Assembly: GCF_032463525.1 (NCBI RefSeq)
Contig: NZ_CP135971.1
Location: 1,674,001 to 1,738,000 of the forward strand
From: Pseudomonas sp. DTU_2021_1001937_2_SI_NGA_ILE_001
Lineage (GTDB): Bacteria; Pseudomonadota; Gammaproteobacteria; Pseudomonadales; Pseudomonadaceae
DNA: 64,000 bases
Reading direction: 5' to 3'
The notes under the pieces were generated by a model. It was not told where the DNA came from and did no database searches. It saw only the letters and a list, made by a program, of their open reading frames with translations. Numbering within the stretch: position 1 is the first letter of the stretch; each line of letters begins with the position of its first letter. This document shows positions 17,347 through 23,065 of this stretch, piece after piece. Made by a program: the position numbers and the translations under genes.

Positions 17347-17436
17347 GGTGAGATGTCCGAGTGGTTTAAGGAGCACGCCTGGAAAGTGTGTATACGAGAA
17401 ATCGTATCGAGGGTTCGAATCCCTCTTTCACCGCCA
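17347..17436 (+). tRNA. tRNA-Ser (anticodon GGA)
   Basis: 90-nt class II tRNA. Acceptor GGTGAGA pairs with TTTCACC; the discriminator G and an encoded CCA follow. The anticodon GGA is at 17381-17383, a long variable arm (GTATACGAGAAATCGTAT) is present and the T arm GAGGGTTCGAATCCCTC is perfect. Reads UCC/UCU. Its 3' end is the integration site of the island to the right. Confidence 0.97.
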
Positions 17437-17440
17437 AATT
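17413..17440 (+). repeat. left attachment site (attL) in tRNA-Ser
   Basis: The 28-bp stretch starting GTTCGAATCCCTCTTTCACC, covering the T loop, acceptor 3' strand, CCA and four bases beyond. It is repeated exactly at 23038-23065. The flanking bases differ on both sides (G versus C before, G versus C after), so 28 bp is the full identity. Confidence 0.93.
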
Positions 17441-17450
17441 GAAAAAACGC

Positions 17451-17486
17451 GAAGCCCCTGATTTCATTGAATGAATCAGGGGCTTC
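17451..17486 (+). terminator. terminator after tRNA-Ser, inside the island
   Basis: Perfect 13-bp inverted repeat GAAGCCCCTGATT / AATCAGGGGCTTC, 10-nt loop. Its place just after the tRNA suggests that the island brought a terminator which replaced the original one. Confidence 0.65.
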
Positions 17487-17550
17487 GTGGTTTTCGGCGT
17501 CTTAAAAAGTCCCCCATGGGAACGCCCATGAGAACATTTTGGGAATGGAC

Positions 17551-17742
17551 CTACATCTGTAGGGCGTTTTCCAGCATGCCGATCACGTCCGGACCGTCCT
17601 CGTTGACCCAGATGCCGTAGTGCTTTCGGATCATCTTGCCGTCGGCGAGCCGCTGCAGTTGCCGGTCAAACTCTTCGGCGGCTACTCGGGCATCTGGAGC
17701 GCCATGATTTCCTCGCTGCCAGTCATGCGCCCGGCGTAGCGA
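17551..17742 (-). pseudogene. 3' remnant of a probable phage gene
   Basis: Open frame of 63 codons without a usable start, ending in MIRKHYGIWVNEDGPDVI... and then a stop. The composition (EEFDRQLQRLADGK) looks like real coding sequence, but upstream the frame meets a stop at 17743-17745. It lies next to the baseplate gene remnant on the opposite strand. Identity unknown. Confidence 0.4.
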
Positions 17743-17775
17743 TCAAATGGACGAAATAATCAAGCCTGCTGCGTC

Positions 17776-18725
17776 AATTCCCCTGAACTGAGCGGCGGTT
17801 ACCACCTGCCGCGCTTCGGCCGCGTGGTGGCCATCGCGGACGCCCCGGCCGAGGCCGGCCTGTGCGATGACTTCCGGCCGCGCTACGCGGTCGACATCGA
17901 GGTGCTGCTGCCGTCCGGCGAACCGGATCCGGCGCTGCCCCTGCTCGCCGGCGTGCCGTTACCGCTGCCTTCGGGCGGCGAGGAAATGGGCATGTTTGCC
18001 CTCCCCCAGGAGGGCACCCGAGTGGTGGTGTGGTTCGCGTATGGCTCGCCCAGCCACCCCCACATCCAGTCGATCCTGCCGCACGGCCTGAGCCTGCCCA
18101 AGGTCCTCAACGGCGACCAGGTCTGGCAGCACAGCGACGGCGTGCAGCAGCGCGTCACGGGCGACGGCGACTGGCTGCGCCAGACTGATGGCAAGATCCA
18201 TGACCAGGCGATCACCCGCGAGGTCGAGGCCCTGGGCAACAAGGAGCGCTACCAGAGCCACACTCAGCACGTGCAGCACCATTCCACCGAGACGGTAGAG
18301 GGATCAAGAAGGTCGAGGTGCCGGGCGCGCTCAAGATGGCCAGCGCCGGCACTGCCAGTCTGGCAGCCCTGGACGACCTGCACCAGGCCAGCGGCCGCGA
18401 TTACAACCTGGTGGTGGACAAGAAGCACAACGCCGCCGTGGGTGGCGACATGGCCGAGCGGATCGCAGGCCTGCGCGAGAGCATCACCCAAAAGAGCCAG
18501 CGGCTGCAGGCGCCGAAAAGCTGGGTCGGGTCCGAGGCGGTCAACATCTTCCAGATGCTGGTGGACACCCTGGACCTGCTCCAGGAGATGAACACGCAGA
18601 TCGCCGCGCACGTACACCCTGGCCCGAACACGCCGCCGACCAATGCGGCAGCGTTTGCGGCAAATGCGGCGAAGGCGGGGGTGATGTCGGCGACGTTAGG
18701 ATCTGTGACGTTTAAGGTTCAATAG
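17776..18725 (+). pseudogene. phage baseplate assembly protein V-like, 5'-truncated and frameshifted
   Basis: Frame 1 (17776 to about 18305) reads NSPELSGGYHLPRFG then RVVAIADAPAEAGLCDDFRPR, typical of baseplate spike proteins of R-type pyocins and myophages (gpV/gp5 OB fold). Around 18300 the reading continues one base back: GIKKVEVPGALK through to the stop at 18725, including HVHPGPNTPPTN. A single missing base near the GAGGG at 18299-18303 explains the switch. The N terminus is gone and no start codon precedes. The last 14 bp overlap the 3' end of the opposite-strand gene. Confidence 0.8.
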
Positions 18726-19959
18726 CTTCGTCGATTTGATTTTTTATGAGTGTTACTAATGAGTTTGCAGACACTGATGCCGAGTGCCTAAACATTTTGT
18801 GGCCCGGTATGTATTGCAGTTTCTGTACATTCAAACATATGGAAAGCCCGCCGCTAAGGATTCTAAAGGCATCTTTATGCGCAGGGAGCTCAGGTGATTC
18901 ACCACTATAAACCTCTGCATTTGATTGCTCGTAAAATTCACGGCTCCAAATTTCTTCTCCGTCCTCATCTAACACGGCACCCTTTTGAACTTTATAATTT
19001 TTGCCAATATCCAGCAGTGGATCGTCTCCAATCGGCTCAATTGGCTCTGAGAACAAGTATATCAATGGTGAGGCTGAGTTGGTGAGCGCGGTGATGTAGA
19101 TTACAAGCCCTGAAAACTTGAATAGGTACCCACATTCGTTATCGTTTGCATAGAGAACACTATGCCCGTCCTGAGATATAGAAATAATCTGTGTATGCCC
19201 AGAGCAGTGCCCGTTCACCACATCAGATGAGAATCTGAGACCACCTTGTTTTTCCATGTGCTGTAGGACGATGTTAGCCTTCTCAGGATCAGTGATTAGG
19301 ACCACGTCAGGCACCGAAGCATTGATCTTCGCTGCTTGCAAGGCAGCTATGAGTCCCTCGACCGCTTGAGCCTTCACTTTGTTCTCAAGTTCCCCATGAG
19401 CAGCTTTCGTTAGATTGTATGCCCGCTCCAAGTCTACCCTACCTTGGGCGCGCGTATACGTTTCCCCAAGTATCGGTGCCAATAAGTGATCTAGAGTAAA
19501 TAGCACTTTTAGAAGCGTTTTTGCGATGTCTTGCTCTAAGATTATGACTGCGCTATGCGTAATCTTGTTGCGCCACGTCTCGACCTTTAAAAATAACGCT
19601 CTCGCATCATCGCTCATTGATATGTTCAGGATGTCTCTAAGCCTATCTATAGACTCCTTGAAAGTTATGGTGTGAACACCATCCGCCTCGTATAGCTCAG
19701 ATATTTCATTTTTGTTCTTGCTTTTGTAAGCGCCCTTGAGCTTGCTGATATCAGAGTACAAAAGCAGCTCATTCCTCTCTCTGAGTATGTGTTTAAACAA
19801 TATTTCCATTCCGTGCTGAATGCTCAATATTGAATCTTTCAAAGCGGAGAATCGCTCTATCTCAGGGGCTCCGGAGATTTCAAGATCCTCATGTTTGGTT
19901 AAGTGGGTGTAGCCTTTCCTCAGGGAGTCAAATCCGTTCTCGATTAGGGATATCTGCAC
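18712..19959 (-). CDS. unrecognised 415-aa protein with HEPN-type RX4H motif
   Basis: GTG start with AAGGAA 8-9 nt upstream. The first 170 residues are helical and contain a HEPN ribonuclease-like signature: Arg130-Asn131-Lys-Ile-Thr-His135 within KVETWRNKITHS, preceded by helices rich in charged residues (MEILFKHILRERNELLLY). In HEPN RNases, R-x4-6-H with a polar residue after Arg is the catalytic pair. The C-terminal 240 residues are unknown; they look mixed alpha/beta (VLYANDNECGYLFKFSGLVIYIT). AT-richer than the chromosome. No signal peptide. Probably an RNA-cleaving toxin or defence effector, inferred only from the motif and island setting. Confidence 0.8.
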   Translation of the reverse strand: MQISLIENGFDSLRKGYTHLTKHEDLEISGAPEIERFSALKDSILSIQHGMEILFKHILRERNELLLYSDISKLKGAYKSKNKNEISELYEADGVHTITFKESIDRLRDILNISMSDDARALFLKVETWRNKITHSAVIILEQDIAKTLLKVLFTLDHLLAPILGETYTRAQGRVDLERAYNLTKAAHGELENKVKAQAVEGLIAALQAAKINASVPDVVLITDPEKANIVLQHMEKQGGLRFSSDVVNGHCSGHTQIISISQDGHSVLYANDNECGYLFKFSGLVIYITALTNSASPLIYLFSEPIEPIGDDPLLDIGKNYKVQKGAVLDEDGEEIWSREFYEQSNAEVYSGESPELPAHKDAFRILSGGLSICLNVQKLQYIPGHKMFRHSASVSANSLVTLIKNQIDEAIEP

Positions 19960-20748
19960 TTCAAGATTCCTTCTAAAAATGTCCGTACTAGATAATCTTT
20001 AAGGATAACTTAGCTTGCTTGAAAAAATCCTATTGTCCCAAAAAAAAACAGCTCGAAAAATCACTTATCCCCCTCCCGCCGACGGGCTTTGCGTCCCGTT
20101 CTTGTGCAAACCAGGCAGGTGATGCAAACCATGCTCCAGGCCACGCCGTCCGTGCGCCCTCACATGGCACGAGCCATTACACACAGTGCAAAGCTTTGCA
20201 GAAAAATGTCACGGGGTTGCACGACGTGCTGCAGGCCGTCCAAGACGATCGATCTGGCGATAGGCCCGGCCCGCTTGGACGAAAAATTGGAAAACAGGCG
20301 AAAATGGGGATTTTCAAAATCTGCACTGCTCCAGAATTGGCATGTGTACAGTTTAAAGCCGAGGTGACATAAATCACTACACGCCTTTAAAATCGTGGCT
20401 TTCAGAGTGAGGAGATGCTGCAATCCCTTGCAAAAATCGGCATCTGCATCTGCATCTGCATCTGCATCTGCAGTGCAGAGTCTCCTCCCGTCTGGCGAAC
20501 TCGTCCCCCACCATGCCTGCCTGCTAAACCTATGGCGAACCCGGCCCCTCACATCTGCGTGCAGCGCCAGCTCGGCCATGGTGCTTGGCAGGATCGCGCA
20601 CACGGCGCCACTCTTCACATTTCTTCACTCCCTCTCTCTTCTGCTACGATCACAGCACACATATGGAATAGGAACAGACAGTCTCTTCGGCAAGCCAGTT
20701 TATCGGACTGTGAGATTGCTCTGCTTTATAAAAGTTCATGAGAAAGAA
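19960..20748. other. divergent regulatory region of the island
   Basis: About 790 bp between the two divergent RX4H-motif genes. It contains five tandem copies of GCATCT (20440-20469, plus a partial sixth). Frames here are open in places but are low-complexity or lack coding character, so no gene is called. GC content is near the chromosome in 20080-20300 and lower elsewhere, suggesting mixed origin. Promoters of both genes must lie here. Confidence 0.5.
20440..20472 (+). repeat. hexanucleotide microsatellite (GCATCT)5
   Basis: Five perfect GCATCT units plus GCA, about 280 bp upstream of the ApeA-like gene. Such repeats can vary in length by replication slippage. Confidence 0.85.
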
Positions 20749-22125
20749 ATGAATAAGATTGAAGAGTTGACTCTTGGTGAATCGTATAGCTTTCAGGTGG
20801 TATTCATCCAAAATGGAAATGCTTTCGCAGCAAAGATAGAAGCCAACCCAGACAAAATAACGCTTACGATAATGACGGAGCATACGAACCTAAAGGAATT
20901 ACAACCACTTGAACCACACATTGACGAGATCATATGTCAACACCGGCACGATAAATTTATTCTTGGGGAGCTTGAGATGCTTACCTCTTCGACCCGAGAG
21001 ATCTGCGCCGTTACGAAAACATGGTTCCAAGAATACAGCTATAGTGCAAAATACTTACTCTACTGCACGAACCCCGAAGAAGACGAGCTAAAGTTTGACA
21101 GCCTAAAAATAAGCTCACCAGCCATCGGCAAGTGGGTAGGATACACATCAACATCACAGCGAATATTAGAGGCATATCATACTAGCAGTGAAAGCCTGTT
21201 TGATATAGATCACGACTTAAACATCGAATTGCAAAACAATCGATCAGTTTCAGTATCTTATAATATCGAGATAAGTGACCGACACGACATCTTTCAAAGC
21301 AGCTTAAGCTTTCCACCTTCACTAATATTTAATTTTGACAACGCGACGGCCGCCCAAGCCGTTTCAGAATTCAATAAATCCTCAACTTTTATCTCCTTCT
21401 TTTTGGGGTTCAGCCCTGACATAAAATCAATCGAATTCTATGGAAATTTTTACCGCTGCACCATGTACTATCCTGGCAATATAAAGCACCCAAAGAAAAA
21501 AATGGACGAATGGGTATTATATCCACTAGGCTGGGACCTTGTTCCATTGTTTAATCATAGTGGTCTCCCCGCCATCCCGCCAGAAGCATTTAAAAACTAT
21601 TTCGACGGTGATGACAACCTGCAAGACACTATATCAAAGTTCGTAACCTATCGAGAAATGCACAATATCGAAGATAGATTTCTCGGATTCTTTAGACTGC
21701 TTGAAAGGATATGCCTTCAAAAAAAATCCCACATAAACGAACAACAACTAGATAAACTTTTAGCCCACTCCAAAGAACTATTAGCCTCTTTCGGCCTAAC
21801 ATCCAGAAAAAGAAAAGACTTTGAAAGCTCCATCAGAAGAGCAAACAGCTCAAAATATAATACCGAAAAATGCATTAGTGACTTTATCGAAAAACTACCA
21901 ACTGAAGTAACAGAAAAGCTTGAAACAAAAAAATCAGAACTCACAAACATATGCAAACTTCGGAACGATATCACCCATGCCAATCCCTACTCAATAGGCC
22001 GCTATGAAATTTATCACTACACAAACTTTATTCAATCCCTACTTTTTTGTGGCCTGCTCAAAAAGTTGGGAGTAGTGATAACCACATGTCCGGCACTCGG
22101 AAATAGGCTAAAGTTCATGCGCTGA
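20749..22125 (+). CDS. ApeA-like HEPN protein, probable anti-phage defence
   Basis: 458 aa. The N-terminal 300 residues are beta-rich (SYSFQVVFIQNGNAFAAKI, KYLLYCTNPEEDELKFDSLKI) like the ApeA N-terminal domain. The last 150 form a helical HEPN domain with FLGFFRLLERICLQ and the catalytic motif Arg405-Asn406-Asp-Ile-Thr-His410 in CKLRNDITHANPY. ApeA-type proteins stop phage growth by abortive RNA cleavage. The sequence is strongly AT-rich compared with its surroundings. ATG 20749 is the only Met in frame near the first conserved segment; its ribosome site is weak, and a GTG at 20710 (adding 13 residues) is possible. Assignment rests on motif and layout, not on a search. Confidence 0.82.
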   Translation: MNKIEELTLGESYSFQVVFIQNGNAFAAKIEANPDKITLTIMTEHTNLKELQPLEPHIDEIICQHRHDKFILGELEMLTSSTREICAVTKTWFQEYSYSAKYLLYCTNPEEDELKFDSLKISSPAIGKWVGYTSTSQRILEAYHTSSESLFDIDHDLNIELQNNRSVSVSYNIEISDRHDIFQSSLSFPPSLIFNFDNATAAQAVSEFNKSSTFISFFLGFSPDIKSIEFYGNFYRCTMYYPGNIKHPKKKMDEWVLYPLGWDLVPLFNHSGLPAIPPEAFKNYFDGDDNLQDTISKFVTYREMHNIEDRFLGFFRLLERICLQKKSHINEQQLDKLLAHSKELLASFGLTSRKRKDFESSIRRANSSKYNTEKCISDFIEKLPTEVTEKLETKKSELTNICKLRNDITHANPYSIGRYEIYHYTNFIQSLLFCGLLKKLGVVITTCPALGNRLKFMR

Positions 22126-23037
22126 GCTTGAGCACCCAAGTAATACCAGCTTACTGGCATATGAGTCGCCACACGAATCTCAACGGAGAAAGCCGAACTC
22201 TGCGCGGCAGAACCCGCGCAGCAGCCGGTCGCCTGTCAATCACGCGCCCGGAAATGCACAGCGATACAAATGCAAAACTGACCTCTATCTGCTAAGGATT
22301 TCTGGCATAGCCCTGAGCATCCAGAAAAAGTCCACATAACGTTCACACCCAGCGGGGACATCTGTAACAAGTATCCGTAAACACTCCATAAATTCATATG
22401 GACAAAAGACAAAAACAATACCCACGGGCGACTTTTACCGGCTTAGAATCCTTTGATTGACGGTTGAAAGCTGCGAGGGGTCAATAGCTGTCAGTATTTG
22501 CACAACGCCCCAGCAATCTCGACATGCCCCCCAGACGCCCCAGCATCGTGTCGATTCTCTACGAGTAGCTAACTTCCAGCCTTCCCCTCAAAAAAGGTAA
22601 TTCCGGTAATTGCATACTGGAACGAGCCTGCACGCCTTGATTTACGTGGTCTGCGGTAATTACCACGAAGGGTAACTAGAGGTAAGGCAAAAGGTAATCC
22701 AAGCGTAAGACTCTGTTTTATAAGGTTTTTTATTTTTATAGATGTCACGTCAGGATAGGTAATCGACTTACTAACTTATTACCAATTTATTTCCTTCTTC
22801 TATCCCTCCGTATCCCTTGAGCTGTAAGGTATGTAGACCTTTGTCAAAACACAATTACCAAAATTACCTTTTTTTGAGGGGTCAACATAAAACGCCGGAA
22901 ATGCCCGTTTCGGCCGTTCTCCCTACCTCACGCATGCACATCCATGGGAACACGCTGGGAACACTCACACGCCCGCCCTACCCCGCCAAAGCCCCGTAAA
23001 TACAGGACTTGCGCGCCTGGGCGACGCGGCTTACAAC
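22126..23037. other. gene-free right end of the island
   Basis: About 910 bp without a supported gene. Contains the GGTAAT/ATTACC cluster (22596-22868) and two copies of GAGGGGTCAA at 22475-22484 and 22876-22885. An AT-rich tract (about 22715-22745) lies inside the cluster. Layout resembles a worn replication or regulatory region rather than coding DNA. Confidence 0.5.
22596..22868. repeat. cluster of GGTAAT/ATTACC motifs
   Basis: GGTAAT or its complement at 22596, 22605, 22655 (palindromic GGTAATTACC), 22693, 22758, 22778, 22853 and 22862, plus GGTAAC at 22671 and GGTAAG at 22681. About 0.13 copies would be expected in a random 275-bp sequence. Possible iterons or regulator sites. Confidence 0.7.
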
Positions 23038-23065
23038 GTTCGAATCCCTCTTTCACCGCCAAATT
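23038..23065 (+). repeat. right attachment site (attR)
   Basis: Exact 28-bp copy of 17413-17440 (tRNA-Ser 3' end). Marks the right boundary of the island. Confidence 0.93.

Follow-up and report, generated by a model that had tools for sequence, protein, structure and literature searches.

A Phitrevirus-like prophage remnant in a Pseudomonas tRNA-Ser gene, with two putative HEPN defence genes in cargo slots around its cos site

The island at positions 17413-23065 of the window (the whole stretch of 64,000 nucleotides analysed here, from contig NZ_CP135971.1 of Pseudomonas sp. DTU_2021_1001937_2_SI_NGA_ILE_001) is what a deletion has left of a P2/HP1-type (Phitrevirus-like) prophage in a tRNA-Ser gene, and carries two genes with HEPN-type motifs, here called A and B, on either side of the phage packaging site, cos. 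In the reading preferred here, to which we give a probability of about 0.72, this Phitrevirus-like remnant keeps a two-slot cargo hotspot, and A and B would be two separate one-gene systems with a putative role in defence.

A prophage remnant in tRNA-Ser

The integration site is tRNA-Ser(GGA) (17347-17436, plus strand; ARAGORN, Rfam RF00005), the 3′ end of which is overlapped by attL (17413-17440, plus strand), a 28-bp core repeated exactly and in direct orientation as attR (23038-23065, plus strand). The 28-bp pattern occurs twice in the whole 5.66-Mb genome and the reversed pattern not at all, so that the repeat cannot be put down to chance. Next to attL a 31-residue C-terminal stub of an integrase gene (17554-17646, minus strand) has 64.5% identity to residues 357-387 of the 394-residue protein that adjoins attL in the prophage of genome G338, a protein with the Pfam phage integrase (PF00589) and arm-DNA-binding domains. 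It is followed by a 33-residue stub of a tail gene like UFJF_PfPro gene 39 (17635-17733, plus strand; 58% identity to residues 171-203 of 234) and by a baseplate gene (17782-18725, plus strand) that lacks its start, has a frameshift near 18300 and matches UFJF_PfPro gene 40 in two frames (73% and 63% identity; phrog_4011 baseplate protein). By blastn the left part of the island matched a Peduoviridae baseplate gene, best that of UFJF_PfPro (72.6%) and then that of phi3 (69.8%). When the proteins of these two phages were used as queries, the baseplate protein and the preceding tail protein alone matched the window, which does not hold a complete genome of such a phage; what it holds of this group is the baseplate gene and integrase as remnants, together with an exact cos.

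The sequence-only reading had held that exact repeats of the tRNA end bound the island and that the locus is decayed and phage-derived. The repeats are confirmed as the sole copies in the genome, and the phage origin is established by the gene remnants, by complete relatives that occupy the same tRNA and have an almost identical att core, and by the exact cos. Its description of the island as integrase-less stands in that there is no complete integrase and fails in that the integrase stub persists.

DNA matches of other genomes to the query 17560-17720 stop at 17637-17645 or start at 17636-17650 and none runs across, placing near 17645 (17636-17650) a junction between the end of the integrase gene and the tail gene. 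A junction-spanning match was found in 0 of 198 other genomes of the genus (four best candidates scored per genome), and an exact 25-mer search found the junction in no viral contig. A single deletion, of some 27 kb by the UFJF_PfPro map, would have fused the integrase 3′ end to the tail gene before the baseplate gene, and would have left the right end of the phage, with the baseplate remnant, a first cargo slot (gene A), cos, a second cargo slot (gene B) and attR.

The UFJF_PfPro baseplate protein, whole or in pieces, was found in 80 of 398 Pseudomonas genomes, that of the window included (E 1e-40), and both ends were fetched for 20 of these baseplate places, in 19 genomes. By their direct repeats three prophages (G338, G349, G301) are in tRNA-Ser, and the 27-28-bp core at both their ends departs from that of the window at two positions, while G032 has the same tRNA-Ser core at its left end only. 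Other repeat-defined sites were a tRNA-Met end (G036) and a tRNA-Thr end (G192, G312, G165); the remaining places showed no clear direct repeat within the stretches fetched. In the three tRNA-Ser prophages the baseplate gene lies 2.6-3.2 kb from attR. G036, G056 and G186 have, close to the first, a further and separate baseplate fragment, a hint that insertion or recombination in the slot has recurred.

Remnants were also found elsewhere. Among 16 further places inspected, mostly with truncated baseplate genes, four islands (G155, G015, G272, G257) have cos, att repeats and a baseplate 3′ end, and no match to them was given by the portal, terminase, capsid, tape-measure or baseplate-J queries. 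These islands lie in tRNA-Ser (G155, about 6 kb with a 48-bp repeat), tRNA-Met (G015, G272) and tRNA-Thr (G257, an 18-bp repeat only). The junctions differ, integrase residue 75 being joined to baseplate residue 96 in G015, about 196 to 103 in G272, 217 to 123 in G376 and integrase residue 357 to tail gene residue 171 in the window, and thus look like independent deletions.

The ends of the island also resemble those of complete relatives. Inside attL, ATGGGAAC-type repeats (17513-17547), like the ATGGGAC-like repeats near both att cores of complete tRNA-Ser prophages, are likely to be integrase arm sites. Towards attR a conserved block (22854-22964), with ATGGGAAC-type repeats at 22942-22964, resembles the right ends of complete tRNA-Ser prophages, ATGGGA-type repeats included; of the 26 matches (25 loci) obtained with the sequence that follows gene B, up to 23 overlap its start. 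G+C content is 39-49% in the four kilobase bins from 19001 to 23000 and 55-68% in every other bin of the window. A cluster of GGTAAT/ATTACC repeats (22590-22874) has inverted arms of 23 bp that lie 239 bp apart, with the right-hand part kept in related prophages. Two genomes, G149 (L202) and G181 (L203), have other DNA at the tRNA-Ser(GGA) locus, with different sequence past the tRNA end, suggesting that the site is frequently used.

The cos site and its cargo slots

The cos site (20062-20086, plus strand) matches 25 of the 25 letters of the motif and lies between the two genes, gene A standing between the baseplate gene and cos and gene B between cos and attR. It is part of a conserved region (20043-20336), the whole of which is spanned by the best matches of the A-B intergenic stretch; that stretch has matches in 94 of the fetched loci, for the most part confined to about 20035-20160. 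The block is taken as cos because the UFJF_PfPro record starts and stops inside its motif, ending with CCCTCCCGCC and opening with the same ten letters. In the phi3 record the block sits some 200-290 bases before the end, so that this record was opened elsewhere. With up to two mismatches the motif gave 104 matches in 102 of 222 fetched loci (2.89 Mb of DNA chosen largely for this phage group) and the reversed control gave none. A short run of the repeated hexamer ATCTGC (20436-20472) lies between cos and gene B.

Cargo around cos was followed in IMG/VR, in the 80 best of 430 loci that carry the baseplate gene. The cos motif lies downstream of the gene in 57; of the other 23 loci, 14 end within 1.4 kb past the gene and nine run for 2.1-3.9 kb. 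Slot 1, between baseplate gene and cos, is 1176-3709 bp long (median 2404) and holds an open reading frame (ORF) of at least 150 residues in 54 of the 57 loci, while slot 2, taken as the 3 kb after cos, holds one in 42 of the 51 loci with at least 1 kb left. The content turns over, the 164 ORFs falling into 117 clusters. PADLOC matched 256 families over these clusters, including AbiLi, AriA, NsnA and PtuA, with one protein often matching many models. Eight of 20 clusters drawn at random from the 66 near the baseplate gene had a PADLOC match (1e-5), and the control, 45 ORFs of the window, gave four families with one member each, hence at most four of 45 ORFs. One or more ORFs of the window outside the island match the models mad3, mad2 and two of MTase_II, with a single ORF per model (1e-5 or better).

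In phi3 (genus Phitrevirus) and UFJF_PfPro the baseplate gene is likewise the last tail gene and is followed by cargo, HicAB in phi3 and a glycosyltransferase in UFJF_PfPro; transporters are also among the slot proteins by Pfam. Variable cargo thus lies between fixed phage genes next to cos and, judged on sequence, the stretch from baseplate gene to att is a hotspot of swapped cargo, much of it defence-like. In phi3 a reverse transcriptase lies beside the integrase (L035:1071-2930), a match to tRNA-Met being present at the end with the integrase; were phi3 circularised, the cos block would have HicAB on one side and the reverse transcriptase gene on the other, again a two-slot plan.

Genes A and B

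Gene A (18712-19959, minus strand) is a full-length ORF of 44.6% G+C. Its modelled N-terminal domain (about residues 1-173, with RNKITH at 130-135) has a HEPN fold, and its C-terminal domain is an uncharacterised alpha/beta domain. In an alignment of 40 family members the R, N and H of the motif, including R130 and H135, are invariant. The HEPN half matches the PADLOC candidate families PDC-S64, DUF3644 and HEC-08, that to PDC-S64 (E 2.7e-16) covering only model positions 3-163 of 339, whereas the C-terminal half falls outside these models. The name PDC-S64 was not found in the literature searched. From HepT of the MntA-HepT toxin-antitoxin system gene A differs by its extra C-terminal domain, by an identity of 12% and by having no nucleotidyltransferase found beside it: the six small island ORFs gave no Pfam match to an MntA-type nucleotidyltransferase or an antitoxin, the other scanned ORFs being phage remnants and gene B. 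For a slot-1 gene of another locus (L103:11084-12136) the PDC-S64 match extends over most of the model (E 6.8e-36), and blastp shows no meaningful similarity of this gene to gene A. In P. extremorientalis (L014:4296-10047) a gene A relative lies close to a RES-domain gene, the HEPN-like N-terminus of which is below the Pfam cut-off, beside a DUF2971 gene.

Gene B (20749-22125, plus strand) is a full-length ORF of 39.9% G+C with an N-terminal beta domain and a C-terminal HEPN domain (RNDITH at 405-410). It matches ApeA_NTD1 (PF18862) over residues 22-256 with 41.4 bits against a cut-off of 25.5 and HEPN_Apea (PF18739) over residues 343-442 with 39.9 bits against a cut-off of 24.4. Among the 83 aligned family members (82 of 97 matches plus gene B itself) R405, N406, D407 and H410 are invariant. 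The mean predicted local distance difference test (pLDDT) score of its AlphaFold model is 91.5. As a lead, with matches below firm thresholds, the N-terminal domain resembles Hcp/tail-tube proteins. ApeA is described as a HEPN defence protein (Gao et al., 2020, as reported in the available parts of PMC7699616 and PMC10952713). Gene B shares with it the order of ApeA_NTD1 and HEPN_Apea, both above the Pfam cut-offs, and a conserved R-x4-H, and differs in drawing no ApeA call from PADLOC and in sitting in a Pseudomonas prophage slot as a putative defence gene.

The AT-rich genes on opposite strands with RNKITH in A and RNDITH in B are as had been reported from the sequence. The accompanying claim of two HEPN proteins is borne out by the fold for A and, for B, by a Pfam domain match above the cut-off. 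An R-x4-H motif alone means little, since among the window's ORFs used as control 27 of 45 carry one somewhere, and it is its invariance across the families that counts.

One system or two

Whether the pair is one two-part defence system or two stacked ones had been left as alternatives, and the evidence, with cos between the genes, their separate occurrence and each found alone beside the baseplate gene, favours the latter. Among 397 other genomes of the genus gene A occurs in three, gene B in three and both in none, a non-overlap that is weak alone because with three carriers each chance likewise predicts none. In P. saxonica (L013) a gene A relative is placed as in the window, immediately next to the baseplate gene and with cos on its far side, and in P. 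koreensis (L015, with L017 apparently the same prophage) one lies between baseplate gene and cos. Gene B relatives stand directly after the baseplate gene in six of 16 viral loci (L019, L020, L021, L024, L028, L033) and in two of three genomes (G084, G349); in L022 one lies near portal and terminase genes. Since gene B is on the baseplate side in the five viral loci where cos was found with it and on the att side in the window, and each gene is found alone, the two seem to move independently. The finding of the genes independently in non-mobile housekeeping settings had been named as a result that would speak against the defence reading; they do occur independently, partly within this phage group and partly in settings that may or may not be mobile, and that case is not clearly made.

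The least probable of the alternatives is that A and B form a single two-part system, for example as pairing HEPN proteins or as sensor and effector. Both are HEPN proteins with R-N-x-I-T-H and they are neighbours in the prophage state, but cos between them would put them at opposite ends of the virion DNA, they are on opposite strands, they do not occur together in the other genomes (with the same caveat on chance), elsewhere the same slot has either gene without the other, and their profiles show no more than a faint resemblance around the motif (probability 2.5%). That A and B are two stacked one-gene systems fits these observations better on the sequence evidence.

Proposed working and alternative explanations

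According to the available part of PMC3710099, the majority of HEPN domains belong to conflict systems as their RNase toxins. Each gene would most likely be a one-protein abortive-infection system made of a sensor domain and a HEPN RNase. A and B, unrelated in sequence outside the motif, would have come to share one phage; the non-HEPN domain of each protein might keep it inactive until an infecting phage is sensed, whereupon paired HEPN domains would form the R-x4-H RNase site and cut cellular RNA, such that growth would stop before the phage matures.

Several observations weigh against this account of a two-slot hotspot with two defence genes. An exact empty site of the window lineage was not found in the genomes compared. 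Mechanically called ORFs of at least 150 residues cross cos in 13 of 57 loci, and 12 of the 20 sampled slot genes have no PADLOC match. The PADLOC match of gene A is to a candidate family and to its HEPN half only; the sole one of gene B is a weak CARF match (E 0.074) with no ApeA call, and its structural matches span residues 1-246, its HEPN half being known from Pfam and having no structural match. One gene A relative (L018) is 3.7 kb past cos and may be outside the phage, and for two of the five distinct by locus (L014, L016) none of the phage proteins used matched within about 8 kb. Gene B relatives are not beside this baseplate gene in ten of 16 viral loci, and gene B is in slot 1 in all five viral loci with cos (L019, L020, L021, L024, L028), whereas the window has it in slot 2. 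Finally, defence activity, sensing, RNase activity and protection by A and B are predicted from their sequences.

It is unlikely, though less so than the other alternatives, that one or both genes serve a purpose other than defence, such as toxin-antitoxin stabilisation or prophage regulation, or are decayed and silent. The surrounding phage is broken and the slots also carry glycosyltransferase, HicAB and transporter genes, as this explanation would have it, yet the frames of A and B are full length against their closest relatives with the motif kept, and Pfam finds no antitoxin or nucleotidyltransferase in the six small island ORFs. Much less probable is a minimal satellite, consisting of attL, attR and cos without movement genes of its own and moved in trans by intact relatives. 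The att cores with arm-like repeats and the exact cos are kept, and the four islands in G155, G015, G272 and G257 show the same pattern, att repeats, cos and a baseplate 3′ end being present and the main structural genes absent; against this, the differing junctions of G015, G272, G376 and the window point to independent deletions, that of the window was found neither in the 198 genomes (four candidates scored in each) nor, as an exact 25-mer, in the viral contigs, and no second baseplate gene copy was scored in the window's genome. Movement of the island in trans is possible but unsupported. The preferred reading therefore remains a prophage remnant with two separate putative defence genes as cargo.

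Relation to known hotspots and significance

A small defence hotspot next to cos in P2-related prophages is already a known kind, the available part of PMC9122126 placing the P2 hotspot between gpA and gpQ and that of K139-like phages between cI and the integrase (Rousset et al., 2022). The window resembles the P2/P4 hotspots described there in having a small, variable, defence-rich cargo locus by cos in a P2-related prophage, and differs in that cargo lies on both sides of cos, from baseplate gene to att, rather than at the gpA-gpQ position. With phi3 and UFJF_PfPro it shares a baseplate gene that is the last of the tail genes and a cos block that matches both, while their cargo is different, HicAB and the reverse transcriptase by the integrase in phi3 and the glycosyltransferase in UFJF_PfPro. 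Peduoviridae prophages of P. syringae are reported to carry defences, the available part of PMC13182921 making no mention of the baseplate-cos-att position. No description of that position with cargo on both sides was found in the literature searched.

What might otherwise be a vague 'defence island' becomes a readable plan, a two-slot cargo hotspot flanking the packaging site, in which further defence genes can conveniently be sought by way of the baseplate gene and the cos motif. Two HEPN genes that might have been tested as a pair are moreover told apart, and gene B offers a testable sensor idea for ApeA.

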